From Rhizobium sp. WYJ-E13 (GTDB taxonomy: Bacteria; Pseudomonadota; Alphaproteobacteria; Rhizobiales; Rhizobiaceae): a DNA stretch of 64,000 bases. Within the stretch, counting starts at the first letter, position 1. Every line of letters starts with the position of its first letter. Below the pieces are notes generated by a model. The model was not told where the DNA came from, searched no databases, and saw nothing but the letters and a program-made list of their open reading frames with translations. The DNA lies in assembly GCF_018987265.1 (NCBI RefSeq), contig NZ_CP076853.1:3313501-3377500 (forward strand), read 5' to 3'. The translations under genes were made by a program, and so were the position numbers. Of the stretch, positions 12,702-43,676 are shown piece by piece.

Positions 12702-12718
12702 GACCTGAAGGCTGAAAA

Positions 12719-20367: not shown

Positions 20368-20452
20368 GTCTTTGTCCCAAGCGGCGGCTCCTTAGGGGCA
20401 CTAGGACCGTCCGCGCAAAAAGCAAAAAACTGAAAGCGCAAGGCGGACGCTG

Positions 20453-20944: not shown

Positions 20945-21885
20945 TGAACGAGACCGATATCTTTGAGAATGCCTTCGGTAGCGGAGACATCCTTTTCGAG
21001 CTGCGCCTTGAACTCGTCCCCTGCGAGGTAGGTATCGGCCCAGCCCTTGGTCTTCAAGGTTTCCTGCCACGCGGCAGACTTGTGCAGCTTGTCGAAGTCG
21101 GCCGCTATCGAGGCGACTTCTTCATCGGTCAGGCCCGGAGCGGCAGCGACCATGCGCCAGTTCTGGATGGAAACGTCGGTACCGGCTTCCTTGAAGGTCG
21201 GAGCGTCGACGCCGGCAATGCGGGCATCGCTGGAAACGCCGAGCAGGCGCAGCGTGCCGGCCTTGACCTGCGATTCGAACTCGCTGTAGCTCGAAATGCC
21301 GGCCGTGACCTGACCGCCGAGGATAGCGGCGAGTGCTTCACCACCACCGGAGAAGGCGACATAGTTGATCTTCGTCGGATCGACACCGGACGCCTTGGCG
21401 ATCAGGCCGACCGCGATATGGTCCGTGCCCCCGGCAGAACCGCCACCCCAGGAAACGGCGCCCGGATCAGCCTTCAGCTTTGTGACGAGATCGGCAAGCG
21501 TCTTGATGTCGGACGCGGCCGGAACGACAATGGCTTCATACTCGCCGGTCAAACGGGCGATCGGGGTGACGTCCTTCAGCGTGACGACCGACTTGTTGGT
21601 CAACAGGGCGCCGACCATGACGTAGCCACCGACAATGAGAGCGTTCGGATTGCCGGCACTCTGGCTGCTGAACTGGGCAAGACCGATAGAACCTCCGGCA
21701 CCCGGTACGTTCTGAACTTGAACGCTCTTGGAAATGCCTTCCTGCTGCAGCACCGTCTGCAGCGAGCGGGCCGTCTGGTCCCAGCCGCCGCCGGGCGCTG
21801 CCGGTGCGATGATTGTGTAATCGGCTGCATAGGCCGGCAACGCGATAACGGCTGCCAAAAGGGTTGCGATGAAAGTGTGCTTCAC
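20941..21885 (-). CDS. tctC: Tripartite tricarboxylate transporter substrate-binding protein TctC
   Basis: Periplasmic binding protein of 314 residues (Bug/TctC family). The signal peptide MKHTFIATLLAAVIALPAYA ends at an A-X-A site before ADYTI. The first mature strand and loop, IIAPAAPGGGWDQTAR, form the anion-binding P-loop-like motif of the family; VPGAGGSIGLAQF and SWGGGSAGGTDH are the other ligand-contacting segments. It is first in the tctCBA operon and overlaps tctB. The acidic TctD/TctE-like regulators lie about 2.3 kb away on the other strand. The 483 bases upstream should contain its promoter. Confidence 0.95.
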   Translation of the reverse strand: MKHTFIATLLAAVIALPAYAADYTIIAPAAPGGGWDQTARSLQTVLQQEGISKSVQVQNVPGAGGSIGLAQFSSQSAGNPNALIVGGYVMVGALLTNKSVVTLKDVTPIARLTGEYEAIVVPAASDIKTLADLVTKLKADPGAVSWGGGSAGGTDHIAVGLIAKASGVDPTKINYVAFSGGGEALAAILGGQVTAGISSYSEFESQVKAGTLRLLGVSSDARIAGVDAPTFKEAGTDVSIQNWRMVAAAPGLTDEEVASIAADFDKLHKSAAWQETLKTKGWADTYLAGDEFKAQLEKDVSATEGILKDIGLVQ

Positions 21886-22368
21886 GATGTGTCCTCCGTG
21901 CGGCGGCTGAGCGGACCGCCACTGCTATTTTTGAAAACGAGGAGAGATCACCGATCGGTGGACGCAATTGTCCTGATAGCGAGCGGAAGTCCCCCCGGAA
22001 ATTCTTCAACTCTCCGCCTCCACGGAGAGGAAGTAGCCCAAGCCATCATATGAAGCTGTCATTTAGCTGACATCGGCGGGATATCCAGTGCGACAAGACA
22101 CTTTTTGCCGTAATTCGACTACCGCTCGTCACAGCCAGGCAAGTAGCCCTTGCGGCGGATTCCTGGCGCTCGTCGCCAGCTTCAACCGCGCCAAGGATGG
22201 CACAATGGTCGTGCCGGCTGAATATCTGGAAGTGGTGATCCACAAAGGCTGATTGCCGCTGTCGCGGGATCAATGCGGAAGGGCGGGGCACGCCAGAGGT
22301 AAACCTCGCCCTTTATACGTTGTCGACTTGGAATTCGCTGCTGAACTGCAGCATTGACGAGCGAGGTT
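21886..22368. other. Intergenic region upstream of tctC, with a possible gene remnant
   Basis: No complete gene is supported in these 483 bases. The tctC promoter should lie near the 21886 end. A plus-strand stretch from about 22130 to the stop at 22250-22252 has coding-like third positions and translates to ...LALVASFNRAKDGTMVVPAE and YLEVVIHKG, but no start or ribosome site accompanies it. It could be the tail of a degraded gene, or chance. The rest shows nothing I can name. Confidence 0.35.
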
Positions 22369-23433
22369 TTACTGCGTGCGCAGCACCTCATTCCAATGCG
22401 CAATCAGCCGCGCCCGCTTCACCTGATCGAGATAGACCATCAGGCCGGGGCTGACCGGTACAGGGCGCAACTGTGCACCGAGAAGTTCCTGCAACGTATT
22501 GGCAGTATTCTCGCCCGCCACTTCCGGGCTGACGGCCGGGATCTGCAGTTCGCGGGCCATGATCGTCTGGCCTTCCTTCGACATGAAGAAGGCAAGGTAG
22601 CGACGACCGAGTTCGGGCTCGGCGGCAGCTTGCGGCACCAGGCCGATCCGCGACATCACGACGGTGTAGTCCTTCGGCAACACGATGCCGACGTCGGGGT
22701 GACGCGAGGCCCAGTCGGCTGCATAGGAGCCGAGGATATTATAGCCGAGCACGAAGCGCCCATCCGCCACGCGCTCGAGGATCGCCGAGCTGGTGGAATA
22801 TAGTTTTACGCCCGCCGCCCCCATCGCGCCGATCACCGACCAGATATCGCCGAACTGTTCCTGATCTCGCGCCATAAACAAAAAGCCGACGCCGGAACGC
22901 TCGATGTCATAGGTGCCGATCCGCCCATGGACATCGTTGCCCTTGCGCTTCAGATAATCGACTAATTCCGCACGCGAGCTCGGCACCGTTTCATGGGCAA
23001 AGCTGGGCTTATGATAGACGAAGACGGCCGGCTCGAAGGTCAGCGCATAAGCCGTATTGCGCCAGTTCGCCCATTTCGGCCACTGTGCACTCATCGGCAG
23101 ATTGCTCACCTGCGCATAGCCGTCGTTCGAAAGCTTCACCTGCAGGTCCATGGCAGAAGAGAAGGCGAAGTCCGCCGTCTTGTGGCCGGCATCCGTCTCC
23201 CTGACGATCCGGTCGTAGATGTCCCCCGTCAGCATGTCCTCATATTTGACCGCCACATCCGGATTGGCCTCCTGAAAGCCGCGGATCATCGGCTGCGCGA
23301 GCGGTTCGTCAAGTGACGAATAGACCGTCAGCACCGGCGCATCGGCATTGCCTGATTTCGCCGGGTAGAAGACCTGTTCCGCGGCGGCAAGACCGGGCAC
23401 CAGGCACAAGAACAGAATGAAAAGGCTCCTCAT
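22369..23433 (-). CDS. Periplasmic ABC-type (iron-like) substrate-binding protein
   Basis: A 354-residue extracellular solute-binding protein. The N-terminus MRSLFILFLCLVPGLAAAEQ is a Sec signal peptide. The body resembles the AfuA/FutA-type binding proteins: VLTVYSSLDEPLAQPMIRGF opens the fold and GRFVLGYNILGSYAADWA lies in the second lobe. No permease or ATPase gene is adjacent. Instead it sits in the same neighbourhood as the TctD/TctE-like pair, an arrangement in which such proteins can act as periplasmic sensors for the kinase rather than as transporters (inference). The start was moved to the ATG at 23433; the longer frame adds 116 basic codons overlapping nothing sensible. No clear Shine-Dalgarno. 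Confidence 0.84.
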   Translation of the reverse strand: MRSLFILFLCLVPGLAAAEQVFYPAKSGNADAPVLTVYSSLDEPLAQPMIRGFQEANPDVAVKYEDMLTGDIYDRIVRETDAGHKTADFAFSSAMDLQVKLSNDGYAQVSNLPMSAQWPKWANWRNTAYALTFEPAVFVYHKPSFAHETVPSSRAELVDYLKRKGNDVHGRIGTYDIERSGVGFLFMARDQEQFGDIWSVIGAMGAAGVKLYSTSSAILERVADGRFVLGYNILGSYAADWASRHPDVGIVLPKDYTVVMSRIGLVPQAAAEPELGRRYLAFFMSKEGQTIMARELQIPAVSPEVAGENTANTLQELLGAQLRPVPVSPGLMVYLDQVKRARLIAHWNEVLRTQ

Positions 23434-23501
23434 CGCGTAAGAATGCCCGAGCTGTACAGGCCAGACAAGGGTCGGCCTCCAATAGTCGCTGCAGCCAGAC
23501 C

Positions 23502-24014
23502 TCAAAGCTCGCGCTCGAAGAACATCAGGATCGGCTTCAGACCAACAGGGATTTCGTAATAGGCGTCTCGCTCGCGAAAACCCAGGCGGCGATATAGCTT
23601 CTGCGCGGCGATCTGCCGGTGTCCGGTATCGAGCCGCATCATTCGGTAGCCATCCTCCTTGGCCTGTGCAAGGGAAGCTTCGCAGAGCGCCAGCGCCGCG
23701 CCCCTGCCGCGTGCCGCCTCGGAAACGAAGAGCCGCTTCATCTCCGAAATGCCCGGCGCAATCTCGTGCTGCATCACGCAACCGACGATCTCTCCGTCAA
23801 GCCGTGCCAGGAATATTGCACCCTGAGGCCTTGCATGGATATCAGGCAGATCGGCAAGCAGCGCCTCGAACCGTGCGGGATTGTAGTAGAGATCGATCAC
23901 TGGCCGCTCGGCCGGGTAATTGTCGTAAAGCCATTGCCGGAACATGCGGCTAAGTTGGCGCGCGGCGTCAAGGTCCTCGGGGCTTTCCGCGAGCGCAATG
24001 GACATATCTGTCAT
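23502..24014 (-). CDS. GNAT-family N-acetyltransferase
   Basis: A 170-residue GNAT acetyltransferase. The acetyl-CoA-binding motif A is clear: EMKRLFVSEAARGRGAALAL, followed by motif B with KLYRRLGFRERDAYY. The N-terminal half (SIALAESPEDLDAAR...) is the usual variable acceptor part. I started at the ATG at 24014, preceded by GGGGG; a second ATG three codons in is possible, and the longer frame is antisense to the response regulator. The acceptor molecule is unknown. It lies between the binding-protein gene and the divergent regulators. Confidence 0.88.
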   Translation of the reverse strand: MTDMSIALAESPEDLDAARQLSRMFRQWLYDNYPAERPVIDLYYNPARFEALLADLPDIHARPQGAIFLARLDGEIVGCVMQHEIAPGISEMKRLFVSEAARGRGAALALCEASLAQAKEDGYRMMRLDTGHRQIAAQKLYRRLGFRERDAYYEIPVGLKPILMFFEREL

Positions 24015-24195
24015 TTTCAGGCCCCCCAGGCTTTGCCGTAACCTTATCACGGCCGCCTTCGCGCCGCCACCGGAGCGACGCATGGTGCGCGAGCGAATAC
24101 CCCTTGCCATCCTCCGTTCACCAAGTCCCAGAATCGCTGTGACATCCGGATGCCATCCCTGATAAACTCCCCGAAAAAATCGAGGGAAACATCCG

Positions 24196-24873
24196 TTGCG
24201 CATCCTGCTCACCGAAGACAATATCGCACTGGCCGACGGCCTGTCGGCGATCTTGCGCGGCACGGGCCATGCGGTGGATGTCGTCCATGACGGAGCCTCG
24301 GCCAATGCCGTCATCGCAGCAGAAAATTTCGATCTCGTCATACTCGATCTGAACCTGCCGGAGATGGACGGGCTCGATGTATTGCGCGCCATGCGCGCCC
24401 GCGGCAACCGGGCTGCCGTGCTCATCCTGACGGCCCGCGGCTCGCCGGAGGAACGTGTGAAGGGCCTGGATCTCGGTGCCGATGACTACCTCATCAAGCC
24501 CTTCGATATCGCCGAATTCGAGGCGCGCGTCCGCGTGCTCCTGCGTCGCCAGGCCGGGCTGCATTCCTCGACCGTCAGTTTCGGGGCAATCTCGCTCGAC
24601 CTCAACTCCCGCGCCTTTTCTGCCGGCGCCACACCGCTCGATATTCCCGCCCGCGAGCTCGGCCTCCTGGAAATCCTCTTCATGCGCGCCGGCAAGGTCG
24701 TCGCCAAGGAAGCGATCATGCAATCATTGACCGCTTTCGACGACGACATTTCGGCCAATGCCATCGAGCAATATGTCAGTCGCCTGAGAAAAAGGCTTTC
24801 GCCGCATGGCCTGACTGTCAAGACCGCCCGCGGCATCGGCTATTATCTCGACAAATTGCCCGAGGCCTCATGA
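24196..24873 (+). CDS. tctD: OmpR-family response regulator, TctD-like
   Basis: A 225-residue response regulator. The receiver domain (1-115) has Asp51 as phosphoacceptor in LVILDLNLPEMDGLDVL and Lys101 in YLIKPFD. The OmpR-type winged-helix domain covers about 125-222 (ARELGLLEILFMRAGKVV, then ISANAIEQYVSRLRKRL). Translation starts at TTG with AGGGAAA upstream; no nearer ATG preserves the receiver start MRILLTED. It overlaps the kinase gene by four bases (ATGA). Location beside tctCBA and resemblance to TctD make tctCBA the expected target; the symbol rests on that context. Confidence 0.88.
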   Translation: MRILLTEDNIALADGLSAILRGTGHAVDVVHDGASANAVIAAENFDLVILDLNLPEMDGLDVLRAMRARGNRAAVLILTARGSPEERVKGLDLGADDYLIKPFDIAEFEARVRVLLRRQAGLHSSTVSFGAISLDLNSRAFSAGATPLDIPARELGLLEILFMRAGKVVAKEAIMQSLTAFDDDISANAIEQYVSRLRKRLSPHGLTVKTARGIGYYLDKLPEAS

Positions 24874-26252
24874 CGGCAGCCTATTCGCTCCGGCGCCGAC
24901 TGCTTTTCTGGCTGCTTGTCTCGACTGCCGTCATCGGCACGCTGGCGCTTGCCGATACCTGGCGCGAGGCGGTGCAGACATCGAATATCGTTTCCGACCG
25001 CGTGCTCGCCGGTTCCGCACTGGCAATCGCCGAACGTGTCGTCGTCGCCGAAGACGGCACGCTCGAAGTGGACATTCCCTATGTCGCGCTGGAAATGCTG
25101 ACCTCGGCAGCGCAAGACCGCGTCTTTTATCGCGTCGACGGCCCGCCCGGAACATTCATCACCGGCTATCAGGCTCTTCCCGTATTGAAGGAAACACCGG
25201 GCGGTACGGCCGCCTTCGCCGACGACGTCTTCCGCGGCGAGCTGATCCGCGTCGCGACCTTGGGGCGCTCCGCCTCGACTGGCATCCGCTCCGTCCCTTT
25301 CGTTGTCACTGTCGCCGAAACCACCATTGCCCGCCGTCAACTTGCGCAGGCGATTCTCGTCCGCTCGGCATTGCGCCTCGCGGTGATGATTGCCGGTGCA
25401 GCCGTCATCGTCTGGATTTCTGTGACTGTCGCGCTGCGACCGCTCTACAAACTTGGCGATGCCATCGGCGAACGCAGCCCCGACGACCTGCATCCGATCG
25501 AACAATCCGTGCCGAGCGAGGTGCAGCCACTCGTCGATACCGTCAACTCCTTCATGGTGCGCCTGCAATCGGCCCTCGATGCGCTGCGCAATTTCACCGG
25601 CAATGCCAGCCATCAGCTCCGCACGCCTCTGACGATCATCCGCACACAACTTGCCCTTTCGGCCCGTGCCGGCTCTCTCGATGAAGCGCAGCACGCCGCA
25701 CTCAAGGGCGATCAGGCCGTGGCCCATGCCGAGCGCATCCTTGCCCAGCTTCTGCTGATGGCCAAGATCGACGCCGCGACCGCCAAGGAAGCGCTGACGG
25801 TCTCGGCCATCGATCTCACCGCCATCGCCCAGGAGATCACCGGTGAGCAGATCCCACGAGCTGCTGAAGCCGGCATCGATCTCGGGTTCGAGGGTGGTGG
25901 CCCCGCGATGATCCGCGCCGAACCGCTGCTGATCGGCGAATTGCTGCGCAATCTCGCCGGCAATGCCATCGCCTATGCTGGTAAGGGCGCGGAAGTGACT
26001 GTCCGTATCATGGAGGATGCGGAAACGGTCAGGCTGGAAGTCGAGGATAACGGCCCCGGCATTCTGCCGGAAAAGCTGGAAGCGGTCCGGAAGCGCTTCT
26101 CCCGCGGCAATGAATCCGGTGCGCCGGGTGCCGGTCTCGGCCTGCCGATCGTCGAGGAAATCGCCAATCTTTTCAATGCGAGACTCGTGCTGATACCAGG
26201 CCGCGGCGGCAGGGGCCTCAAAGCTTCCGTGACATTCAACCGGGCGGCCTGA
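24870..26252 (+). CDS. tctE: Sensor histidine kinase, TctE-like
   Basis: A 460-residue membrane kinase. A first transmembrane helix (about 12-30), a periplasmic sensor region (to about 165) and a second helix (about 168-190) are followed by a short HAMP-like linker. The HisKA box has ASHQLRTPLTIIR with the phospho-accepting histidine near residue 248. The catalytic domain shows the N box (LLRNLAGNAIAYAGKG) and the G boxes VEDNGPGILPEKL and GAGLGLPIV. It shares a four-base overlap with the response regulator. In the TctDE model the kinase senses citrate-like acids, possibly with help from the nearby periplasmic binding protein. Confidence 0.9.
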   Translation: MTAAYSLRRRLLFWLLVSTAVIGTLALADTWREAVQTSNIVSDRVLAGSALAIAERVVVAEDGTLEVDIPYVALEMLTSAAQDRVFYRVDGPPGTFITGYQALPVLKETPGGTAAFADDVFRGELIRVATLGRSASTGIRSVPFVVTVAETTIARRQLAQAILVRSALRLAVMIAGAAVIVWISVTVALRPLYKLGDAIGERSPDDLHPIEQSVPSEVQPLVDTVNSFMVRLQSALDALRNFTGNASHQLRTPLTIIRTQLALSARAGSLDEAQHAALKGDQAVAHAERILAQLLLMAKIDAATAKEALTVSAIDLTAIAQEITGEQIPRAAEAGIDLGFEGGGPAMIRAEPLLIGELLRNLAGNAIAYAGKGAEVTVRIMEDAETVRLEVEDNGPGILPEKLEAVRKRFSRGNESGAPGAGLGLPIVEEIANLFNARLVLIPGRGGRGLKASVTFNRAA

Positions 26253-26359
26253 AAGCCGTCACCGCGTTAACCTTTCCGCCTTGCATTCTTTCGCTGCATT
26301 GCACACACTGATTTTGGGAACAGCTAAGCCGATCAACGGCAAGCGGATAAAAGAGCAAT

Positions 26360-29300
26360 ATGTCAATCAAAGCCAGCATCTATCATCTGACCCATTATCA
26401 GTATGACAAACCGGTCCGCCTCGGCCCACAGATCATCCGCCTCAAGCCAGCCTCGCATTCGAAAACGCGGGTCTTGAGCCATTCTCTGAAGGTCACGCCG
26501 TCGAACCATTTCGTGAACCTGCAGCAGGACCCTTACGGCAATTATCTCGCCCGCTTCGTCTTCCCCGACCCCGTGAGCGAATTCAAGATCGAAGTCGATC
26601 TCGTCGCGGACATGACGGTCTACAATCCCTTCGACTTCTTCGTCGAAGAAGAAGCGACAAAGTGGCCCTTCAACTACCCGGAATCGCTCCGTGAAGATCT
26701 CTCGATCTACATGATGCCGGAGCCGGCTGGCCCGCGCCTGAAGGCACTGCTGCCGACGCTCGACTGGTCGCCCGATCAGCCGACGGTGGACATGATCGTG
26801 GGCCTCAATGCCCGTCTGCAGCGGCAGATCGGTTATGTGATCCGTATGGAAGCCGGCGTCCAGACGCCGGAGGAGACGCTGGAAACAGCCAAGGGATCCT
26901 GCCGCGACACCAGCTGGCTGCTTGTGCAGATTCTGCGCCATCTCGGGCTCGCCGCCCGCTTCGTCTCCGGCTATCTCATCCAGTTGGCACCGGACCTGAA
27001 AGCGCTCGATGGCCCTTCCGGTACTGAGGTCGATTTCACTGATCTGCATGCCTGGGCGGAGGTCTATCTGCCCGGCGCCGGTTGGGTCGGTCTCGATCCG
27101 ACCTCCGGCCTGCTGACCGGCGAAAGCCACATTCCGCTCGCAGCCACACCGCATTACAGCAATGCCGCCCCGATCTCCGGCGGCTATTTCGGCGAGGCCG
27201 AAACCGAATTCGCCTTCGACATGAAGGTTTCACGCGTCGCCGAGCATCCGCGCATCACCAAACCTTTCTCCGATGAGAGCTGGGACGAGCTCAATCAGCT
27301 CGGCGAGAAGGTCGACCGCGTTCTCGAAGACGAGGATGTGCGCCTGACGATGGGCGGCGAGCCGACTTTCGTCTCCATCGACGATTTTCAATCCGACGAA
27401 TGGAACACCGCCGCAGTCGGACCGACCAAGCGCGAAAAGGCCGACAGCCTGATCCGCAGGCTGCAGGAGCGTTTCGCTCCCGGCGGCTTCCTGCATTACG
27501 GCCAGGGTAAATGGTATCCCGGCGAAAGCCTGCCGCGCTGGACCTTCTCTCTCTACTGGCGCCGCGACGGCAAACCGATCTGGCAGAACCTCGATCTGAT
27601 CGCCGCTGAAGGCAAGGATACCGGCGTCAAGGCCGAGGATGCGGAAAAGCTCCTGACGGTGATTGCCAGGGAACTGGCAATCAAGCCCGATATGGTGCAG
27701 CCGGCCTATGAGGATCCTGCAGACTGGATCATCAAGGAAGGCAGCCTTCCCGAAAACGTTGATCCGTCGAATTCGAAGCTGAAGGACCCCGAGGAGCGCA
27801 GCCGCATTGCCCGCGTCTTCGCCCGCGGCCTCACCGTGCCGACGGGTTATGTCCTTCCCGTTCAGGTATGGAATGCCAGGGCCGCCGCAAGCCGGACCTG
27901 GGTCAGCGAAAAATGGCGCACGCGCCGCGGAAAGATCTTTCTTGTACCGGGCGACAGCCCGATCGGCTATCGCCTGCCGCTCGGCACGCTGCCCTATGTC
28001 CCGCCGGCGCGCTATCCTTATATCCACCCCGCGGATCCGTCGATACCGCGCCCGCCGTTGCCTGACGTCTTCGTGCCCGCCGGCCGAGCCATGCCAGAAG
28101 CATCGTTCCAGACGGACGAAAGCCACGCCGTCCGTGTCGAACAGACCCTTGGCGACATAGGCGGCGCCGTGCGCACTGCCTTGTCGGTCGAACCGCGCGA
28201 GGGCCGACTCTGCGTCTTCATGCCGCCAGTCGAGCGCATCGAGGATTATCTGGAGCTGATCGCGGCTGCCGAAAACGCCGCTGCCGAACTCAAGCTTCCC
28301 GTTCACATCGAAGGCTACCCGCCGCCGCAGGACGAGCGCATCAACGTCATCCGTGTCGCCCCCGATCCAGGCGTCATCGAAGTCAACATCCACCCGGCTT
28401 CCAACTGGCAGGATTGCGTCGACATTACCACGGCGATCTACGAGGAAGCGCGGGCCACCCGGCTCGGCGCCGACAAGTTCATGATCGATGGTCGCCACAC
28501 CGGCACCGGCGGCGGCAACCACGTCGTCGTCGGCGCCGCCAATCCAAACAACAGCCCCTTCCTGCGCCGCCCGGACCTGCTGAAGAGCATCATTCTCCAC
28601 TGGCAGCGCCATCCCTCGCTCTCCTACCTGTTTTCCGGCATGTTCATCGGTCCGACCAGCCAGGCGCCGCGCATTGACGAGGCCCGCCACGACAGTCTCT
28701 ATGAGCTGGAGATCGCCATGGCGCAGGTCGGAGCGCCGGGTCGCGGTCAACTGCCGCTGCCCTGGCTTGTCGACCGACTGTTCCGGAATCTTTTGACCGA
28801 TGTCACCGGCAATACCCACCGTGCAGAGATCTGTATCGACAAGCTCTTCTCGCCGGATGGCCCGACCGGGCGGCTCGGCCTCATCGAGTTCCGCGGCTTT
28901 GAGATGCCGCCGAACGCACGTATGTCGCTTGCCCAGCAATTGCTGGTGCGCGCGCTGATCGCCCGCTTTTGGACGAACCCCGCCGACGGCAAGTTCGTCC
29001 GTTGGGGTACGACCCTGCACGACCGTTTCATGCTGCCGCACTTCGTCTGGACTGATTTCCTCGACGTGCTCGCGGACTTGCGCGAAAACGGCTTCGACCT
29101 CAGCCCCGAATGGTTCAAAGCGCAGCTTGAATTCCGCTTTCCTTTCTGCGGCGAGGTCGAATACGAGGGCTCGAAGCTGGAACTGCGCCAGGCGCTGGAG
29201 CCCTGGCACGTCATGGGCGAGGAAGGCGCGCCGGGCGGCACCGTCCGCTACGTCGACAGCTCCGTCGAGCGCCTTCAGGTTCGGCTCGAAACGAACAACG

Positions 29301-29686
29301 CCTCGCGCTACCCCGTCACCTGCAATGGCCGAATCGTACCATTGACGCCGACGGGCACATCGGGCGTGTCCGTCGCGGGCGTGCGTTTCAAGGCCTGGCA
29401 GCCGGCTTCCGGCCTGCACCCTGTACTGCCGGTGAATACGCCTTTGACTTTTGATATTTATGATACATGGTCGAAACGTTCGATCGGCGGCTGCATCTAT
29501 CACGTTGCCCATCCGGGTGGTCGGAATTATGAAACCTTCCCGGTCAACGGCAACGAGGCGGAAGCACGACGGCTTGCCCGTTTCGAACCGTGGGGACATA
29601 CGGCGGGTGGTTATATTCCGCGCGCCGAAACGGTTTCGCCTGAATTCCCGCTGACGCTGGATCTGAGGCGGCCCGCTGGAATTTGA
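26360..29686 (+). CDS. Large transglutaminase-like protein with DUF2126 domain
   Basis: An 1108-residue cytoplasmic protein, first in a three-gene overlapping cassette. The N-terminal beta domain of bacterial transglutaminase-like proteins covers about 1-140. A transglutaminase core follows with the complete catalytic triad: Cys181 ([10 protein letters not shown]), His230 ([10 protein letters not shown]) and Asp246 (GLDPTSG). From about residue 310 to the end lies DUF2126, rich in conserved motifs such as [26 protein letters not shown] and [18 protein letters not shown]; the last resembles glutamine-synthetase/gamma-GCS-like ligase strands. There is no signal peptide. Such cassettes were predicted by comparative genomics to ligate or cleave peptides, but no reaction is known for this protein. 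A strong ribosome site is not visible. Confidence 0.9.
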
Positions 29687-32118
29687 AGAAATTGGGTCTG
29701 ATGGGCAAGAAGCCTGCACTGGAATTGAGGAACGAGATCGAAGAACGCCCCGGCGCGGATGCGGTCTTCGACTATGCTCCTCTACCCGGCATTGCCGACG
29801 AGATGGTGGACAACAACGGTGCGATCCGTCCCGTCTGGCAGCGTTTCCTCTCCCATCTGAACCTTATGCCGGAAAAGGATCTGACCGAGCGCTTCGCCCG
29901 CGCCGACCGCTACCTGCGCGATGCCGGCGTCTTCTACCGGGCTTACGGTGCCAAGGGCAGCGGCGAGCGCGCCTGGCCGCTCTCCCACATCCCGGTGCTG
30001 ATCGACGAGCGCGAATGGCAGGTGCTTTCGGCAGGCCTCGTGCAGCGCGCCGATCTGCTCGAAGCGATGGTCGCCGATATCTATGGCGACAACAGGCTTG
30101 TTGAGGAGGGCATTGTTCCCCCAGCCCTCATCGCTGCCAACCCTGAATTCCAGCGGCCTCTGGTCGGCGTGAAGCCGGCAACCGGGCACTATCTGCATTT
30201 CTGCGCTTTCGAGATCGGCCGCGGACCCGATGGCAACTGGTGGGTGCTCGCCGACCGCACGCAAGCTCCCTCGGGCGCGGGATTCGCACTCGAAAACCGG
30301 GTGGCGACCACCCGATCCTTTTCCGACGTCTATGCTGAAACGCCGGTTCACCGCCTCGCCTCTTTCTTCGGTGCTTTCCGCGACGCCCTGCAGACGATGA
30401 AACATTCGGGCGACGACCGCATCGCGGTTCTGACCCCCGGCCCGGCCAACGAAACCTACTACGAGCATGCCTATATCGCTCGCTACCTCGGTTTCATGCT
30501 GCTTGAAGGCGAGGATCTGACCGTCGTCAACGGTCGCGTCATGGTCCGCACTGTCGCCGGCCTGAAGCCGATCGGCGTACTCTGGCGTCGTCTCGATTCC
30601 GCCTACGCCGATCCCCTGGAATTGAACCAGAATTCGCATATCGGCACGCCTGGCCTTGTCGAAGCGCTACGCGCCGAAACCGTCACCATCGTCAATGCGC
30701 TCGGCACCGGCGTTCTTGAGACGCGTGCCTTGCTTGCCTTCATGCCCGCCGTCTGTCGTGCGCTGCTGGGCGAAGATCTTCGCCTGCCGTCCATTGCCAC
30801 ATGGTGGTGCGGCCAAAAGGATGAGCGCGATCATGTGGCTGCCAATATCGAGAAGATGGTGATCGGCCCGGCCTATTCCCGCGCACCCTTCTTCGATGAC
30901 GGCGGCGAATCCGTTCTCGGCTCGTCGCTTCGCGCCACGGCCAAGGATTCGATTTCGGGCTGGTTGGCGAGCGACGGCGCAAAACTTGTCGGTCAGGAAG
31001 TCGTTACCCTCTCCACAACCCCCGCCTGGGTCAACGGCAAGCTGACCCCGCGGCCGATGTCATTGCGCGTCTTCGCCGCGCGCACCGCCAACGGCTGGCA
31101 GATCATGCCCGGCGGCTTTGCTCGCATCGGCTCGGGAGACGATGCCGCCGCCATCGCCATGCAGTCCGGCGGCGCCGCCGCCGACGTCTGGATCGTCAGC
31201 GACAAGCCGGTCGAGCGCCACACTCTCCTGCCCGCCGAAGGCAGCTTCACCCGCAACATGCCGGGGAGCCTGCCGAGCCGCGCGGCCGACAACCTCTTCT
31301 GGCTGGGCCGCTATATCGAGCGCGCAGAAGGGGCGCTGCGCATCCTGCGCGCCTGGCATGCGCGTTACGCCGAGGCGGCCGACCCGAACCAGCCGCTGCT
31401 GGCAGACGTCACCGAATATCTGGCCGCGGTCGATATCGACACGGCCGAACCGGTGCCGGAATCGCTGCTGCGCAATATCGATAGCGCCGTCTATTCGGCG
31501 AGCAATATCCGCGACCGCTTCTCGCCCGATGGATGGTTGGCCCTGAACGATCTCGCCAAGACCGCCCGCCGTTTCCATACGACGATTACATCAGGCGACG
31601 ACGCCAGCCATGCGATGACCATCCTGCTGCGAAAGCTTGCCGGCTTCGCCGGTCTCGTGCACGAAAACATGTACCGCTTCACCGGCTGGCGTTTCCTCTC
31701 GCTCGGCCGATACATCGAGCGCGGGCTGCACATGACGCGTCTTCTCGGTCACATGTCCGGCCCGGAAGCACCCGATGGCGCGCTCGATATGCTGCTCGAA
31801 ATCGGTGATAGCGTCATGACCCACCGCCGCCGCTACAATGTGAACACCGCGCGGCTGACGGTGACCGACCTCCTGGCGCTCGATCCGCTCAACCCGCGCT
31901 CGATCCTCTTCCAGATGAACGAGATCCATCGCGAGGTCGAACAGCTGCCGAATGCCTTCATCAACGGCCAGATGTCGCCTTTCTATCGCGAGGCGATGCG
32001 CCTGCATTCCGGCCTCGCCGTCATGACGCCGGAAACGATGAGCGGCGATGTCTATCACCGGCTGGAGCATGAGTTGGAACACCTCTCCGACCTCCTGGCG
32101 CAGACCTATCTCGGATGA
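29683..32118 (+). CDS. Circularly permuted ATP-grasp protein fused to alpha-E domain
   Basis: An 811-residue fusion. Residues about 60-520 form a circularly permuted type 2 ATP-grasp ligase (DUF404/DUF407 pattern): [37 protein letters not shown] and [18 protein letters not shown] are characteristic, with a late [13 protein letters not shown]. Residues about 525-811 form the helical alpha-E domain (DUF403), opening [20 protein letters not shown]. In many bacteria these are two genes; here they are joined. Stop and start overlap with the gene before (TTG at 29683, four bases) and with the gene after (ATGA). An in-frame ATG at 29701 is the alternative start. The ATP-grasp fold implies formation of an amide or peptide-like bond; the substrate is unknown. 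Confidence 0.9.
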
Positions 32119-33002
32119 CGGCCGTGCTCTACGATCTCACTTTGCATATGGGCTATGCCTACGACACGCCGGCATCTGGCGCGCGCCACATCATGCGCCT
32201 CATGCCGCTCTCGCTGCCGAACCGCCAGCGCCTTGTCGCAGGCTCGATCAGCATTTCGCCGCAGCCGGACGAACAGTCCCATTTCGTCGACTTCTTCGAA
32301 CATCCGGCCACATCCTTCCTGCTGCGCTCGCCACATGAAACGCTCGATATCCGGATGCAGGCCCGTGTGCAGGTCGAAAGCCAAGCCATATCGGCGGACT
32401 TCTCGCCGCTGCTGGCCGAGCTCCCGGAGGACGTCGCCGGAATCTGGTCACTCGATCCGGGATCGCCCCACCATTTCCTTGGCGACAGCCCGCGCCTGAC
32501 CGAAACCAAGATCATCAGTGAGTACGCAAGGACCTGTATCCAGCCTTCGCTGACGGTGATGCAGATCGCCTATGCGCTTTGTGCCCGCATCAACGAGGAT
32601 TTCACCTACGATTCGGAAGCGACGAGTGTCGAGACGACGCCGCTGGAAGCCTTCAAGCTGAAGCGCGGAGTCTGCCAGGATTTCACTCATATCATGATCC
32701 TTGCATTGCGCAGCCTCGGCATTCCCGCCGGCTACGTTTCCGGCTTCCTGCGCACCATCCCGCCACCGGGCAAGGAACGGCTGGAGGGGGCCGATGCCAT
32801 GCATGCATGGGTGCGCGTCTGGTGCGGCGAGACGGCCGGCTGGATCGAGCTCGACCCCACCAACAATATCGCCGCCGGAACCGACCATATCGTCGTCGCC
32901 TACGGCCGCGACTATGCCGACGTCGCTCCCGTAATTGGTGTACTCAAAAGCTACGGAAGCCAGCGTTCCGTGCAGGCGGTAGATGTAATTCCGCTGAAAT
33001 AA
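32115..33002 (+). CDS. Second transglutaminase-like cysteine peptidase of the cassette
   Basis: A 295-residue cytoplasmic protein. An N-terminal transglutaminase-associated beta domain (about 1-150) precedes a transglutaminase core with Cys187 (KRGVCQDFTHI), His230 (DAMHAWVRVW) and Asp247 (IELDPTNN). The start ATG overlaps the preceding stop codon by four bases, so its translation should be coupled to the ATP-grasp/alpha-E gene. It may cleave or transfer peptides built by the ligase; this is a prediction by association. A TadG-like gene follows about 120 bases downstream but looks separate. Confidence 0.9.
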   Translation: MTAVLYDLTLHMGYAYDTPASGARHIMRLMPLSLPNRQRLVAGSISISPQPDEQSHFVDFFEHPATSFLLRSPHETLDIRMQARVQVESQAISADFSPLLAELPEDVAGIWSLDPGSPHHFLGDSPRLTETKIISEYARTCIQPSLTVMQIAYALCARINEDFTYDSEATSVETTPLEAFKLKRGVCQDFTHIMILALRSLGIPAGYVSGFLRTIPPPGKERLEGADAMHAWVRVWCGETAGWIELDPTNNIAAGTDHIVVAYGRDYADVAPVIGVLKSYGSQRSVQAVDVIPLK

Positions 33003-33122
33003 TCCCGAAATAGGAAAAAATAGCCGGTTGCCTACAATTTTAGATACTGGGTTTAGCGCCCATTAAAGTCATCTGGTCCATCAGTAGCGTCTACATAGGG
33101 CTCCTTCGAACCGGTGGACATG

Positions 33123-34349
33123 ATGAACACCCTGCATACGCTTTTTGATCGGCTGCGGCGCGACCGCGGCGGCAATTTCGGCATCATGACGGCCATCCTG
33201 CTGCCTGTGCTCGTCGGCGCAGCAGGCTTAGCGATCCAGGTCAGCGATATGTTACTCTCAAAGCAGCAATTGCAGGAGGCAGCCGACTCGGCTGCGCTCG
33301 CAACTGCGACCGCGCTGGCAAATGGCACGATCCAAACCTCGGAGGCCGAGGCCTTCGCGCAGAATTTCGTCGCCGGACAAATGGCGAACTACCTGCAAAG
33401 TGGTGTGGATATCAAGAACGCGACGGATGTCGATGTCCAGACAACGACATCGGGTAAGTCGACATCCTATCAGGTAACGGTTTCACCGAGTTACGATCTC
33501 GCGGTCAATCCGCTCATGCGAGCAGTCGGCTTCACGACGCAGCATCTTTCGACGTCGGGTACAACGGTCAGCGGCCATTCACAGACCCAGGGCTCCGTCT
33601 CCATGTTTCTTGCGCTCGATAAATCGGGATCGATGGGAGAGGCTACAGCGACCGTCAATGTGGATAACCCGACGGAAACGTACACGTATAACTGCAACGG
33701 CCACTACAACAGGAACAACAAGTGGGTCTACGACACCTGCACTGGCACTCGTGCGCGCTATTACACGAAGATAGAGGCTCTAAAGATTGCCGCCAGCAAT
33801 CTCTTCGGCCAGCTCAACAGCGCCGATCCCAATACGGAATACGCGCGCACCGGCGCGGTATCTTATGACTTGGTTGAATACACGCCGAGCAAGCTCGCTT
33901 GGGGAACCGCCGGTGTCGCCAGCTATGTCAACGAGCTTCAGGCCGGGGGCGGCACGAATTCAAGCGGCGCGATGAACACGGCCTACACGTCATTGACTGC
34001 TAAGAACGCAGCCGGGAACGATGCCGAGGATGCCCTTCACCAGCAGAAGACCGGGCAGGTACCCAAGAAATACATCGTCTTTATGACGGATGGTGATAAC
34101 AACAACGACAAGTGGGGCGGCCGCTCTTACGATACCTCGACAAAAACAACATGCGACAACGCCAAATCCAAGGGTATCGAGATCTACACCATCGCCTTCA
34201 TGGCGCCTGCGGGCGGACAGGCTCTGCTGCATTATTGCGCCTCTGATGACGCCCATTATTTCCAAGCAGAAAAAATGGAAGACCTCCTTGCGGCGTTCAA
34301 GGCGATCGGAGCGAAGGCCTCCGCACAGATGACGCGCCTGACCAACTGA
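33123..34349 (+). CDS. TadG-like pilus-assembly protein with von Willebrand A domain
   Basis: A protein of about 408 residues. A single N-terminal transmembrane segment (about residues 20-40, following RRDRGGNFGIM) with the TadE/TadG-type pattern places the rest outside the membrane. A von Willebrand factor A domain follows with a complete metal-ion-dependent adhesion motif DKSGSMG and later VFMTDGDNNND. Such proteins are associated with Flp/Tad pili or with surface adhesion. No other tad genes are near, so it is an orphan copy. The start is ambiguous: GTG 33114, ATG 33120 or ATG 33123. I chose the last because GGTGG is five bases before it. Codon use is somewhat less GC-biased (for example AAC and ACA runs), which may hint at a different origin. 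A terminator follows. Confidence 0.86.
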   Translation: MNTLHTLFDRLRRDRGGNFGIMTAILLPVLVGAAGLAIQVSDMLLSKQQLQEAADSAALATATALANGTIQTSEAEAFAQNFVAGQMANYLQSGVDIKNATDVDVQTTTSGKSTSYQVTVSPSYDLAVNPLMRAVGFTTQHLSTSGTTVSGHSQTQGSVSMFLALDKSGSMGEATATVNVDNPTETYTYNCNGHYNRNNKWVYDTCTGTRARYYTKIEALKIAASNLFGQLNSADPNTEYARTGAVSYDLVEYTPSKLAWGTAGVASYVNELQAGGGTNSSGAMNTAYTSLTAKNAAGNDAEDALHQQKTGQVPKKYIVFMTDGDNNNDKWGGRSYDTSTKTTCDNAKSKGIEIYTIAFMAPAGGQALLHYCASDDAHYFQAEKMEDLLAAFKAIGAKASAQMTRLTN

Positions 34350-34376
34350 CAATCGGTATCTACTAACAGCCGCAAC

Positions 34377-34417
34377 AAAAAGCCGCTCCGGAACAAACCG
34401 GCGCGGCTTTTCGTTTA
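34377..34417 (+). terminator. Terminator of the TadG-like gene
   Basis: A long stem, AAAAGCCGC...CCGG with CCGG...GCGGCTTTT around AACAAA and one unpaired base, is followed by TCGTTTA. It lies 28 bases after the stop codon and separates this gene from glgP. Confidence 0.85.
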
Positions 34418-34630
34418 AGCTTTATTCGGCCTATCAGATCGGGAAAACCGATTGAAATCAAGTCCCTTGGGCCTGTCGAATATGAAGGTTCCGCAAATTT
34501 TTCGTTTGCCCAATTCCCTTGTTGCAAGTGCGTGATAACGGTGCATAAACTGCCCTGTCGGTGTAAGCGACAAATCGATTGAATCAGGCGTAAGATACTG
34601 TAACCAAATAAAAATTGGCGAGACCTGACC

Positions 34631-37090
34631 ATGAATACTGTTTCGAAGCCGATCATTCCCGCCCCCGCTCCGCGCAGTTCCCGGCCGGAAATCCTGGCTG
34701 AGGAAATCATCGAGCGCCTGACCTACCGTATCGGAAAGGACGCCAAGGTCGCCAAGCCGCATGACTGGCTGACGGCAACCATTCTTGTCGTGCGTGACCG
34801 CATCATCGACAAGTGGATGGAGTCCACCCGCAAGGTTTACGAAACCGGCGCCAAGCGCGTCTATTACATGTCTCTCGAATTCCTGATCGGCCGCCTGATG
34901 CGCGATGCCGTATCCAACCTCAACCTCATGGAAGAGGTGAGCGATGCGCTCGCTTCGCTCGGCGTCGATATCAACGTCATTGCCGGCCTCGAACCGGATG
35001 CTGCCCTCGGCAACGGCGGTCTCGGCCGTCTCGCAGCCTGTTTCATGGAGTCGATGGCAACTGTCGATGTCCCGGCCTATGGCTATGGCATCCGCTACGT
35101 CCACGGCCTCTTCCGTCAGCAGATGGCAGATGGCTGGCAGGTCGAACTGCCGGAAAACTGGCTTGCGCACGGCAATCCCTGGGAATTTGAGCGCCGCGAG
35201 AGCGCCTATGAAATCGGCTTTGGCGGCTCGATCGAGGTCATCAGCGGCCATGATGAGCAACCGCGTTACGTCTGGAAGCCCGCCGAGCGCGTCATCGCCG
35301 CCGCCTTCGATACGCCTGTCGTCGGCTGGCGCGGCAAGCGCGTCAATACGCTTCGCCTATGGTCGGCCCAGCCGATCGATCCGATCCTGCTCGACGCCTT
35401 CAATGCCGGCGACCATATCGGCGCGCTGCGCGAGAGCAACAGGGCTGAAAGCCTGACGCGCGTTCTCTATCCGGCGGATGCAACGCCTGCCGGCCAGGAA
35501 CTGCGCCTGCGCCAGGAATATTTCTTCTCGTCCGCCTCGCTGCAGGACATCCTGCGCCGTCACCTGCAGCAGTATGACGACTTTACCTCGCTGCCGGACA
35601 AGGTGGCGATCCAGCTCAACGACACCCATCCGGCCGTTTCAGTCGCCGAACTGACGCGACTTCTCTGTGACGTGCACGGCCTGGATTTCGATACGGCCTG
35701 GGATGTCACCCGTCGTACGTTCTCCTACACAAACCACACGCTTCTTCCCGAAGCGCTGGAAAGCTGGCCGGTTCCGCTGTTCGAGCGCCTGTTGCCGCGC
35801 CATATGCAGATCATCTATGCGATCAACGCCAAGATCCTGATCGAGGCGCGCAAGAGCCGCAATTTCTCCGATACGGAAATCCGCTCGATCTCGCTGATCG
35901 ATGAAAGCGGCGACCGCCGCGTGCGCATGGGCAACCTCGCCTTTGTCGGCTCGCACTCGATCAACGGCGTCTCGGCACTGCACACGGACCTGATGAAGGT
36001 CACGGTCTTCGCAGACCTGCACAAGCTCTACCCTGATCGCATCAACAACAAGACCAACGGCATCACGCCGCGCCGCTGGCTGCAGCAGTGCAACCCCGGC
36101 CTGACCAGCCTGGTGCGCGAAGCGATCGGCGATGAATTCCTCGACGACGCCGAGAAGCTGCGTGCACTCGACAAGTTCGCTACCGACCCGAGCTTCCAGC
36201 AGAAATTCGCTGCCGTGAAGCGCACGAACAAAGTGGCGCTTTCCAATCTCGTCGCTAGCCGCATGGGCGTGAAGCTCGATCCGTCGGCCATGTTCGACAT
36301 CCAGATCAAGCGCATCCACGAATACAAGCGCCAGCTCCTGAACATCATCGAAGCCGTGGCACTTTACGACCAGATCCGCTCGCACCCGGAGCTGGACTGG
36401 GTACCGCGTGTCAAGCTCTTCGCCGGCAAAGCGGCGCCGAGCTACTACAATGCCAAGCTCATCATCAAGCTCATCAACGACGTTGCGCGCACCATCAACA
36501 ACGACCCGTCGGTCCGCGGCCTGCTGAAGGTCGTCTTCGTGCCGAACTACAATGTCTCGCTAGCGGAAGTCATGGTTCCAGCCGCCGACCTATCCGAGCA
36601 GATCTCGACGGCAGGCATGGAAGCGTCGGGTACCGGCAACATGAAGTTCGGCCTGAATGGCGCACTGACGATCGGCACGCTCGACGGCGCCAATGTCGAA
36701 ATGCGCGACAATGTCGGCGAAGACAATATCGTCATCTTCGGGCTCCAGGCCGATGAAGTCGCCAAGATCCGCAGCGAGGGCCATAATCCACGTGCGATCA
36801 TCGAGGGTTCGCGGGAGCTATCGCAGGCGCTGGCCGCCATCAGCTCGGGTGTCTTCTCTCCTGACGATCGCAACCGCTATACCGGCCTTATCGACGGCAT
36901 CTATTCTCACGACTGGTTCATGGTCGCCGGCGATTTCGATGCCTATGCCGCCGCCCAGCGTGAGGTCGATCAGATCTGGACCAACCAGTTCTCCTGGTAT
37001 GAGAAGACGATCAATAATACGGCGCGGATGGGCTGGTTCTCTTCCGACCGCACGATCCGACAGTATGCCGACGAGATCTGGAGAGCTTGA
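34631..37090 (+). CDS. glgP: Glycogen phosphorylase
   Basis: Cytoplasmic PLP enzyme of 819 residues that releases glucose-1-phosphate from the non-reducing ends of glycogen. The family is unmistakable: DAALGNGGLGRLAACFMESMA, NGVSALHTDLMK, the cofactor region EASGTGNMKFGLNG (its lysine carries PLP) and RIHEYKRQLLN. It is first in the glycogen operon, and its stop codon overlaps the glgB start (TGATG). The 281 bases upstream should contain the operon promoter; TTGAAT at about 34577 followed by an AT-rich stretch is a candidate but not a firm call. The start ATG has GGCGAG upstream. Confidence 0.97.
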   Translation: MNTVSKPIIPAPAPRSSRPEILAEEIIERLTYRIGKDAKVAKPHDWLTATILVVRDRIIDKWMESTRKVYETGAKRVYYMSLEFLIGRLMRDAVSNLNLMEEVSDALASLGVDINVIAGLEPDAALGNGGLGRLAACFMESMATVDVPAYGYGIRYVHGLFRQQMADGWQVELPENWLAHGNPWEFERRESAYEIGFGGSIEVISGHDEQPRYVWKPAERVIAAAFDTPVVGWRGKRVNTLRLWSAQPIDPILLDAFNAGDHIGALRESNRAESLTRVLYPADATPAGQELRLRQEYFFSSASLQDILRRHLQQYDDFTSLPDKVAIQLNDTHPAVSVAELTRLLCDVHGLDFDTAWDVTRRTFSYTNHTLLPEALESWPVPLFERLLPRHMQIIYAINAKILIEARKSRNFSDTEIRSISLIDESGDRRVRMGNLAFVGSHSINGVSALHTDLMKVTVFADLHKLYPDRINNKTNGITPRRWLQQCNPGLTSLVREAIGDEFLDDAEKLRALDKFATDPSFQQKFAAVKRTNKVALSNLVASRMGVKLDPSAMFDIQIKRIHEYKRQLLNIIEAVALYDQIRSHPELDWVPRVKLFAGKAAPSYYNAKLIIKLINDVARTINNDPSVRGLLKVVFVPNYNVSLAEVMVPAADLSEQISTAGMEASGTGNMKFGLNGALTIGTLDGANVEMRDNVGEDNIVIFGLQADEVAKIRSEGHNPRAIIEGSRELSQALAAISSGVFSPDDRNRYTGLIDGIYSHDWFMVAGDFDAYAAAQREVDQIWTNQFSWYEKTINNTARMGWFSSDRTIRQYADEIWRA

Positions 37091-39297
37091 TGAAGCCGCC
37101 GAAAGCCGCCCCTGAAGTGAAGCTTCCCTGGGAAATTTCGGCAGACGAGATCGCGGCAATCCTCAGTGGCTCGCAGGCCAATCCTTTTGCCGTCCTGGGC
37201 GTACACCAGGCCGGCGAGGCCTTCATCGCCAGGTGCTTCATTTCGGGTGCGGAAGCCGTCACCGCCATGACGCTGGATGGGACACCAATCGGCGATCTCC
37301 ACCAGCTCCATCCGGACGGCCTCTTCGGCGGCCAGGTATCGATCACGAAATTCCAGCCGGTGCGCTATCGTGCCCGGCGCGCCGACGCCGAATGGGCCGT
37401 GACCGACCCTTACAGCTTCGGCCCGGTGCTCGGCCCGATGGACGATTATTACGCCCGTCAGGGTTCGCATCTGCGGCTTTTCGACAAGATGGGCGCCCAT
37501 CGCATCAAGCACGAGGGTGCAACCGGCATCCACTTCGCCGTATGGGCGCCGAATGCGCAGCGCGTCTCCGTCGTCGGTGATTTCAACAATTGGGATGGTC
37601 GCCGCCACGTCATGCGCTTCCGGTCCGACAGCGGCATCTGGGAGATCTTCGCCCCCGACGTGCCGCTCGGTGTTCCCTACAAATTCGAGATCCGCGGTCA
37701 CGACGGCGTGCTGTTGCCGCTGAAGGCCGATCCCTTTGCCCGCCGCAGCGAACTGCGCCCGAAGACGGCTTCCGTGACGGCCGCCGAGCTTTTACAGGAA
37801 TGGCAGGACGAGCCGCATCTGAAGCATTGGCGCGAAACCGACAAGCGCCGCCAGCCGATCAGCATCTATGAGGTTCATGCCGGCTCCTGGCAGCGTCGCC
37901 AGGACGGCTCCATGCTGTCTTGGGATGAGCTTGCCTCGAGCCTCATCCCCTACTGCGTCGATATGGGCTTCACCCATATCGAATTCCTGCCGATCACCGA
38001 GCACCCCTACGACCCCTCCTGGGGCTACCAGACGACCGGCCTCTATGCCCCGACCGCCCGCTTCGGCGAGCCGGAGGGCTTCGCCCGTTTTGTCAATGGC
38101 TGTCACAAGGTCGGCCTCGGCGTCATTCTCGACTGGGTGCCGGCGCATTTCCCGACTGATGAGCACGGCCTCGGCTGGTTCGACGGCACAGCACTTTACG
38201 AACATGCCGACCCGCGAAAGGGCTTCCACCCGGACTGGAACACGGCGATCTATAATTTCGGCCGCACGGAAGTCGTGTCCTACCTTGTCAACAACGCACT
38301 CTACTGGGCCGAGAAATTCCATCTCGATGGCCTGCGCGTCGATGCGGTCGCCTCGATGCTCTATCTCGACTATTCGCGCAAGCACGGCGAATGGATCCCG
38401 AACGAATATGGCGGCAACGAAAATCTCGAAGCCGTCCGCTTCCTGCAGAACCTCAACACCCGAATCTATGGCGAGCATCCTGGCGTCATGACCATCGCCG
38501 AGGAATCGACCTCCTGGCCGAAGGTTTCCCAACCGGTTCATGAAGGCGGCCTCGGCTTCGGTTTCAAATGGAACATGGGCTTCATGCACGACACGCTGAG
38601 CTACATGAGCCGCGAACCGGTGCACCGCAAGCATCACCACAACGAACTGACCTTCGGGCTGCTCTACGCCTATTCGGAAAATTTCGTCCTGCCGCTGTCC
38701 CATGACGAAGTCGTGCACGGCAAGGGTTCGCTGATCGCCAAGATGCCGGGCGACGACTGGCAGAAATTCGCCAATCTGCGCGCCTACTACGCTTTCATGT
38801 GGGGCTATCCCGGCAAGAAACTGCTCTTCATGGGACAGGAATTTGCCCAATGGGCTGAATGGAGCGAAAACAAGTCGCTCGACTGGAACCTCCTCCAGTA
38901 TCGGATGCACGAAGGCATGCGCCGCCTGGTGCGCGACCTCAACTTCACCTACCGCAGCAAGGCAGCGCTCCATGCGCGCGACTGCGAAGGCGACGGTTTC
39001 GAATGGCTGATCGCCGACGACTACGAGAACTCAGTCTTCGCCTGGCTGCGCAAGGCGCCCGGTCAGAAGCCGGTTGCCGTCATCAGCAACTTTACGCCTG
39101 TCTATCGCGAGAATTACTCGATCCGGCTGCCTTCGTCGGGACGCTGGCGGGAAATCCTCAATACCGATGCCGACATCTATGGCGGTAGCGGAAAAGGCAA
39201 TGGCGGGCGCGTGCAGGCCGTCGATGCCGGCGGCGAGATAAGCTGCTCGATAACCCTGCCGCCACTGGCGACGATCATGCTTGAACCCGAGAATTAG
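37090..39297 (+). CDS. glgB: 1,4-alpha-glucan branching enzyme
   Basis: Glycogen branching enzyme of 735 residues (GH13), which makes alpha-1,6 branch points. An N-terminal region and CBM48 domain (about 110-205: [20 protein letters not shown]) lead into the TIM barrel: [19 protein letters not shown], the nucleophile Asp in LRVDAVASM, the acid/base Glu in MTIAEEST, and [15 protein letters not shown] used the ATG overlapping the glgP stop; one extra TTG codon is possible. It is second in the operon, 19 bases before glgC. Confidence 0.97.
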
Positions 39298-39316
39298 TGA
39301 CTGGTGGGAGGAGAAA

Positions 39317-40579: not shown

Positions 40580-40582
40580 CTT

Positions 40583-42025: not shown

Positions 42026-43663
<1,638 letters not shown>

Positions 43664-43676
43664 TCCGGGGGGGCAT

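Follow-up and report, generated by a model that had tools for sequence, protein, structure and literature searches.

A cassette of three same-strand genes (genes 1 to 3, Table 1) in the genome of Rhizobium sp. WYJ-E13 is best explained, at a probability of roughly 0.55, as an accessory module that combines a putative ligase of the glutamine synthetase (GS) fold, a pseudo-ATP-grasp protein and transglutaminase (TG)-like enzymes. It lies in a stretch of 64,000 nucleotides (contig NZ_CP076853.1, positions 3,313,501 to 3,377,500), referred to here in its entirety as the window. The cassette would not be free-standing but would serve the widespread canonical peptide-ligase system of ATP-grasp, Alpha-E and TG proteins (Anbu-type). 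Systems of this kind are already known, and Iyer et al. (2009) reportedly predicted, according to papers that cite them, that they act on peptides. The DUF2126 domain of gene 1 is present in about one third of 299 sampled Pseudomonadota genomes, yet neither the word DUF2126, nor a product of the cassette, nor a degenerate ATP-grasp protein within it was found in the literature searched, which left out preprint servers, most subscription journals and supplementary files; this agrees with an earlier preliminary description of this DNA, according to which no substrate or product of such cassettes is known. Telling the likely ligases from the likely non-ligase, and tying the cassette to the Anbu-type trio, shows where combined deletions and enzyme assays would be most informative.

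Results

The ATP-grasp domain of gene 2 is recognizable by profile and by fold. It scored 469.6 bits against the permuted ATP-grasp profile (cut-off 32), and the predicted model of gene 2 (predicted local distance difference test, pLDDT, 87.1; predicted template modelling score, pTM, 0.82) matched PDB 3n6x (E 7.5e-32), followed by plant and human glutathione synthetases. Aligned without its Alpha-E part, the model shares the fold of glutathione and homoglutathione synthetases, GspS and YgiC/YjfC (2hgs, 3kal, 2io8, 7uk8, 7uk6), all of which are known ligases. The solved structure closest to gene 2 in both sequence and fold, 3n6x (a putative glutathionylspermidine synthase of Methylobacillus flagellatus), has the same active-site motifs as the canonical paralogue, whereas gene 2 lacks them. 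We aligned 13 canonical proteins with 88 in which, as in gene 2, ATP-grasp is fused to Alpha-E (an earlier set held 13 and 31), and followed 11 motif positions, namely those of the LEDN and DDK motifs, a Lys and glycine-rich loop, and a late Asn and Lys. All 11 are kept in 13/13 canonical paralogues, while each of the 88 fused proteins keeps between 0 and 3. Gene 2 of the window retains one, G401 (canonical G398); it has A184, R186 and E340-T341-R342 in place of canonical E183, N185 and D342-D343-K344, and G389, D400/E403, A486 and A494 in place of K391, G397/G400, N482 and K490.

No fused protein among the 88 retains both E183 and N185; two have a gap there. In glutathione synthetases, a Glu-x-Asn-type pair binds magnesium. 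The ATP-grasp enzyme Cp1B shares R139, D141, E163 and N165 with homoglutathione synthetase, and changing any one of them to alanine abolished or strongly reduced activity (PMC12568646; this and the other papers cited by PMC number are drawn on for the excerpts available). By sequence, Cp1B E163 and N165 would correspond to canonical E183 and N185, and because the Cp1B mutants show how important this pair is, its loss provides support that is independent of how the 11 positions were selected. Since the active-site residues of canonical permuted ATP-grasp enzymes have been lost, gene 2 is very probably not a ligase. The preliminary description, which had called it an ATP-grasp ligase, was correct as to fold and profile and overstated its function, the conserved catalytic residues of such a ligase being absent from its homologues.

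Judged by substitution rates, the domain is nevertheless under purifying selection and is not decaying: the ratio of nonsynonymous to synonymous substitution rates (dN/dS) of the ATP-grasp part was 0.077-0.163 against seven relatives, within the range for the rest of the operon (0.047-0.303), these being rough values with a dS of 0.5-1.1, partly near saturation. The fused proteins form one clade (88/88, support 0.944) in a tree used for this grouping alone; under canonical rooting, the common ancestor of the canonical proteins spanned all 101 tips. The Alpha-E part of gene 2 matched its profile (PF04168) at 201.8 bits against a cut-off of 20.8, and in 40 fused proteins the E of the Alpha-E motif is kept in 95% and the R in 100%.

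The loss in gene 2 contrasts with the TG triads and DUF2126 landmark residues, which remain intact in the same operon, a contrast that we count in favor of the accessory-module reading. The triad of gene 1 is kept in 99/100 aligned sequences, the remaining one having a gap, and that of gene 3 (Cys187/His230/Asp247) in 88/88 aligned gene-3-type proteins, a label assigned by best BLAST match under which some canonical TG proteins may be included. Two intact triads had been read from the window alone, and both are borne out by this conservation. In sequence, both domains have the Cys-His-Asp triad of the transglutaminase-like superfamily and are predicted to be hydrolases or transamidases.

Better ligase candidates are DUF2126 and, in a canonical operon elsewhere in the genome, an ATP-grasp that is intact. 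Gene 1 matched the DUF2126 profile (PF09899) at 1334.7 bits (cut-off 27) over profile positions 2-826 of 826. Its predicted model, of mediocre confidence (pLDDT 69.6), resembles the GS-like ligases (glutamine synthetases, GmaS and YbdK) in fold over residues ~300-1080, suggesting that DUF2126 is probably a GS-fold ligase. Unlike those enzymes, DUF2126 is larger and is fused to a TG domain, and the two share no detectable sequence similarity. Comparison of the DUF2126 profile (effective number of sequences, Neff, 2.5) with alignments of canonical ATP-grasp, TG and Alpha-E proteins was likewise negative. The DUF2126 protein of locus L171 is short (687 aa) and divergent (33% identical); its gene lies next to a separate TG gene, and neither ATP-grasp nor Alpha-E was called in that region.

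Separate, adjacent and intact ATP-grasp, Alpha-E and TG genes are not found at the window cassette; they are present in the same genome at L009:6782-10053 (G000:C1), ~515 kb from it, as a CP_ATPgrasp protein of 497 aa, an Alpha-E protein of 313 aa and a TG protein of 274 aa. Among 299 sampled genomes, Alpha-E is found in 172, including 96/96 of those with DUF2126 (Fisher 7e-31), and two or more copies are present in 91/96 DUF2126 genomes versus 11/76 genomes that have Alpha-E without DUF2126. A distance of at most 20 kb separates Alpha-E from DUF2126 in 25/84 genomes, the 84 being DUF2126 genomes with Alpha-E among the matches listed, where a match may be either canonical or fused. Of 20 regions sampled outside this order, 12 (L159, L161, L165-L170, L172-L175) have canonical ATP-grasp and Alpha-E genes next to DUF2126, at L165 and L174 without a fused gene; for 11 of the 20, a listed Alpha-E within 20 kb had been known in advance, and only the whole-list count (25/84) is free of region choice. 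Because DUF2126 always co-occurs with Alpha-E, mostly in multiple copies, and in good part adjoins the canonical ATP-grasp/Alpha-E operon, the cassette is probably not self-contained, and we consider it a likely accessory of the canonical system. The preliminary description, which had presented a coherent cassette of predicted amidoligase and transglutaminase kind, was right as to coherence, which is strongly conserved, and less so as to independence.

In 14 genomes, Anbu and DUF2126 are no more than 20 kb apart, and 118/120 Anbu genomes have Alpha-E. A search with an Anbu protein (E up to 0.001), whose identity is supported by its PDB matches (5loy, 5nyj and others), found Anbu in 0/37 genomes of the genus and in 10/24 genomes of other families of the order. 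Pfam family PF00227 proved invalid as a test for Anbu, and Pfam-based Anbu counts are unreliable, because Pfam-A misses the Anbu protein L174:11269-12045, which receives no Pfam family. The canonical operon of this genome is without Anbu and is followed by genes for an HD-domain response regulator and a transposase. Another adjacent pair of TG-like genes, one without a Bact_transglu_N match, is located at L010:5996-7772 in the same genome.

DUF2126 was present in 37/37 genomes of the genus (this one included; the G022 copy is split across two contigs) and in 5/24 genomes of other families of the order. We surveyed its neighborhood in 81 loci, consisting of the window and 80 named relatives (the best 80 of at least 591, alphaproteobacterial or of unresolved title, with flanks of up to 10 kb), counting neighbor families after codon-scored gene calling that omitted genes of <35 aa. 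The recurring unit is exactly genes 1, 2 and 3 (80, 71 and 69 of the 81 loci), and some of the misses reflect truncation, as several contigs end near the cassette. No small partner or precursor gene of callable size recurs at a fixed place in these loci, in agreement with the earlier remark that no precursor peptide gene lies nearby. A cluster for graspetide-type ribosomally synthesized and post-translationally modified peptides was rejected on the same count, no small open reading frame (ORF) family of callable size recurring beside the cassette. Fusion of ATP-grasp to Alpha-E, which had been singled out as a distinctive feature, is real and is the usual form within the cassette (71/81 loci, median 804 aa) rather than anything special to this genome.

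Profile searches placed the domains proposed from the sequence, together with Bact_transglu_N, over their Pfam cut-offs: Bact_transglu_N, Transglut_core and DUF2126 in gene 1, CP_ATPgrasp_2 and Alpha-E in gene 2, and Bact_transglu_N and Transglut_core in gene 3, with the first domain starting at residue 6 in both gene 1 and gene 3. A scan of the three proteins with NCBIfam gave zero matches, a scan with Rfam found no RNA family in the cassette, and a promoter and terminator scan of 26000-33200 gave zero plus-strand promoter-like sites. The ORF positions described earlier (26360-29686, 29683-32118 with a TTG start, and 32115-33002) were reproduced, and of the two 4-base overlaps claimed, that of genes 2 and 3 (32115-32118) held, the same overlap occurring in 25/69 relatives. 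The other, at 29683-29686, did not fare as well. It requires the TTG start and was called in only 4/70 relatives (incomplete genes were left out of both counts), whereas ATG 29701 and the bases that follow it (ATGGG[CT]A) are common to 7/12 aligned sequences, the window included. These comparisons make ATG 29701 the likelier start, leaving a 14-nt gap, so that coupling of genes 1 and 2 by overlap is unsupported.

Table 1. Positions of the cassette genes, their domains and the upstream region in the window.
Feature	Position	Strand	Description
Intergenic region upstream of gene 1	26253..26359	+	No sigma54-type site found
Gene 1	26360..29686	+	1108 aa; TG-like cysteine hydrolase plus DUF2126 (putative glutamine-synthetase-fold amidoligase); ORF, PF08379, PF01841, PF09899
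Transglut_core of gene 1	26789..27100	+	Triad Cys181/His230/Asp246
DUF2126 domain	27194..29668	+	Invariant E334, K384, E389, E674, N676, H721, H820, R821, E823, E843, R845, E848
Gene 2	29701..32118	+	805 aa from ATG 29701 (811 aa if TTG 29683); degenerate permuted ATP-grasp fused to Alpha-E
CP_ATPgrasp_2 of gene 2	29992..31128	+	Predicted catalytically dead; fold like PDB 3n6x and glutathione synthetases
Alpha-E of gene 2	31270..32112	+	E-R pair present; 10/29 canonical-conserved positions kept
Gene 3	32115..33002	+	295 aa; second TG-like protein; start 4 bases inside gene 2

Discussion

In the mechanism that we propose, the single chain of gene 1 would carry both a TG-like cysteine hydrolase and, as DUF2126, a GS-fold ligase, gene 2 would be a pseudo-ATP-grasp protein fused to Alpha-E that acts as a non-catalytic docking or regulatory subunit, and gene 3 would be another TG-like enzyme, either hydrolase or transamidase. 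Ligation would fall to DUF2126 and to the intact ATP-grasp of the distant canonical operon, which together might assemble, in the cytosol, a short peptide or an amine conjugate for the TG domains to cut or transfer. Glutathione is synthesized by the GS-fold enzyme GshA and then by the ATP-grasp enzyme glutathione synthetase, and by analogy a glutathione-like two-ligase chemistry may be suggested tentatively. A more speculative proposal is that the selected pseudo-ATP-grasp/Alpha-E protein could be a regulatory or substrate-presenting subunit of DUF2126, which together with the distant ATP-grasp would make a nitrogen-linked, TG-edited metabolite of glutathione-like kind.

Several observations weigh against the accessory-module reading. 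The 11 motif residues were selected after the alignment had been viewed, and just 49/122 canonical-conserved positions are retained overall in gene 2 (13 + 31 set), so that the motif loss is partly general divergence. Single residues survive among the 88 fused proteins (K391 in 9, K490 in 10 and E183 in 1), and these, together with conserved residues found only in the fused family (W369, G371, E340 and G194, among others), make a remodelled active site possible; the dN/dS values, as noted, are rough. Foldseek alone gave no significant GS match for the DUF2126 model (YbdK, E 0.33), and comparison of the same DUF2126 profile (Neff 2.5) with GS and GCS2 alignments revealed no sequence similarity. 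Among the nine regions without a pre-known Alpha-E, one (L165) had canonical genes beside DUF2126, the cassette and the canonical cluster are far apart in this genome, and co-occurrence does not prove a shared pathway. Finally, no sigma54 site was found within 300 bp upstream of gene 1.

One of the closest known systems is the Anbu operon, which encodes ATP-grasp, Alpha-E, TG-like and Anbu proteins (PMC5666114, PMC6376114) and whose ATP-grasp protein releases phosphate from ATP (PMC6376114). The cassette likewise clusters the ATP-grasp, Alpha-E and TG-like families closely and adjoins the Anbu operon in some other genomes, and the canonical trio is present elsewhere in this genome. The cassette departs from the Anbu operon in having DUF2126, in the fusion of ATP-grasp to Alpha-E and in the loss of the ATP-grasp motif, and none of the 37 genomes searched in this genus yielded Anbu. 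A cluster of the same domain families in Burkholderia cenocepacia (I35_5080-5083: DUF404/407, DUF403, TG and a large TG protein, the last of which is presumably a DUF2126 protein) differs in that ATP-grasp and Alpha-E are separate genes and in its dependence on NtrC and sigma54, for which no site was found here (PMC5491218). The rlo operon of Pseudomonas aeruginosa likewise pairs ATP-grasp with a TG-fold protein and a peptidase; DUF2126 and Alpha-E are not described in the excerpt available, and because RloB is membrane-bound and its TG domain inactive, membership of the cassette in the RloABC group was rejected (PMC12239564).

An alternative is protein tagging, in which target proteins would receive a peptide tag from the ligases and the TG domains, with Anbu where present, would trim it. 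Tagging has been discussed for the Anbu operon (PMC6376114), as has a version involving a peptide-synthesis system (PMC5666114), and the proximity of Anbu to DUF2126 in 14 genomes would fit it. We nevertheless regard it as unlikely, as the 81 loci show no conserved precursor or tag gene close to the cassette, Anbu was not detected in the 37 genomes of the genus, all of which have DUF2126, and, in the excerpted report, Anbu peptidase activity was undetected and the operon proteins showed no specific interaction (PMC6376114).

Nitrogen salvage, in which the TG-like enzymes would deamidate or cut peptides during nitrogen starvation while the ligases store or recycle the product, draws on a wider set of reports. 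The B. cenocepacia four-gene cluster requires NtrC and sigma54 (PMC5491218), a published connection that was missing from the preliminary description. In Pseudomonas putida, PP2685-PP2687, one of which is TG-like, are higher under nitrogen than under carbon limitation (PMC3325844), and Anbu is raised in nitrogen-limited cells, although expression of the Anbu operon was unchanged in several other conditions (PMC5666114). An RpoN site is tabulated for a CP_ATPgrasp gene of Bradyrhizobium (PMC13207237), a survey of the sigma54 regulon includes the Anbu family (COG3484; PMC12316311), and domains of this set associate with urea metabolism in marine metagenomes (PMC3597751). In our 20 regions, sigma54-like sites scoring at least 12 preceded 10/27 DUF2126 or canonical ATP-grasp starts versus 7/102 others (Fisher 2.5e-4). 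For the cassette itself the signal is weak: only 13/80 upstream regions (79 relatives and the window) reached the shuffle threshold. Control of the window cassette by sigma54 was rejected, no site having been found within 300 bp upstream of gene 1, and, given this and the 13/80 count, the support for a nitrogen link comes from outside this genus. The main text of a Sinorhizobium meliloti nitrogen-stress paper contains no cassette term, and hvyA is the sole TG homologue named in the excerpt of a Caulobacter NtrC paper. Nitrogen salvage is an improbable account of this cassette. A YjgF/RidA-like gene lies near the cassette in 3/20 regions (L166, L167 and L168, the family being confirmed for L167 only), and in P. 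putida the nitrogen-induced TG gene is listed next to PP2689, which encodes a putative endoribonuclease (PMC3325844).

That gene 2 is instead an active ligase with a remodelled site, using a new nucleotide or substrate mode in a self-contained cassette much as the preliminary description had it, would accord with the retained fold, the purifying selection and the fused-family-specific residues, but is very unlikely in view of the missing Glu-x-Asn pair, the few Lys, glycine-loop and Asn positions left, and the effect of the alanine exchanges in Cp1B.

Genomic context

The host genome is 6.9 Mb in size, and its close relatives include R. croatiense (94%) and Rhizobium sp. CCGE 510 (92%). Upstream of the cassette, window positions 18850-26252 hold a minus-strand TctA-type transporter and a solute-binding protein gene, and then the genes for a response regulator and for a 2CSK_N-containing sensor kinase. 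This two-component system (24196-26252) was considered as a regulator of the cassette and rejected, its two families being found in only 4/81 loci (the window included); given this count and the minus-strand transporter on its other side, it more likely serves the TctA-type transporter. Downstream (33114-45647), a Tad/VWA protein is followed by glycogen-metabolism genes (phosphorylase, branching enzyme, phosphoglucomutase and a further CBM48/amylase-type enzyme). Glycogen and Tad/VWA neighbors recur in 13 to 17 of the 81 loci, and the family next in frequency to the three cassette genes occurs in 29/81, at scattered positions. Rfam matches elsewhere in the window were to mmgR/suhB small RNA and terC RNA, at 12636-12708 and 16991-17053.

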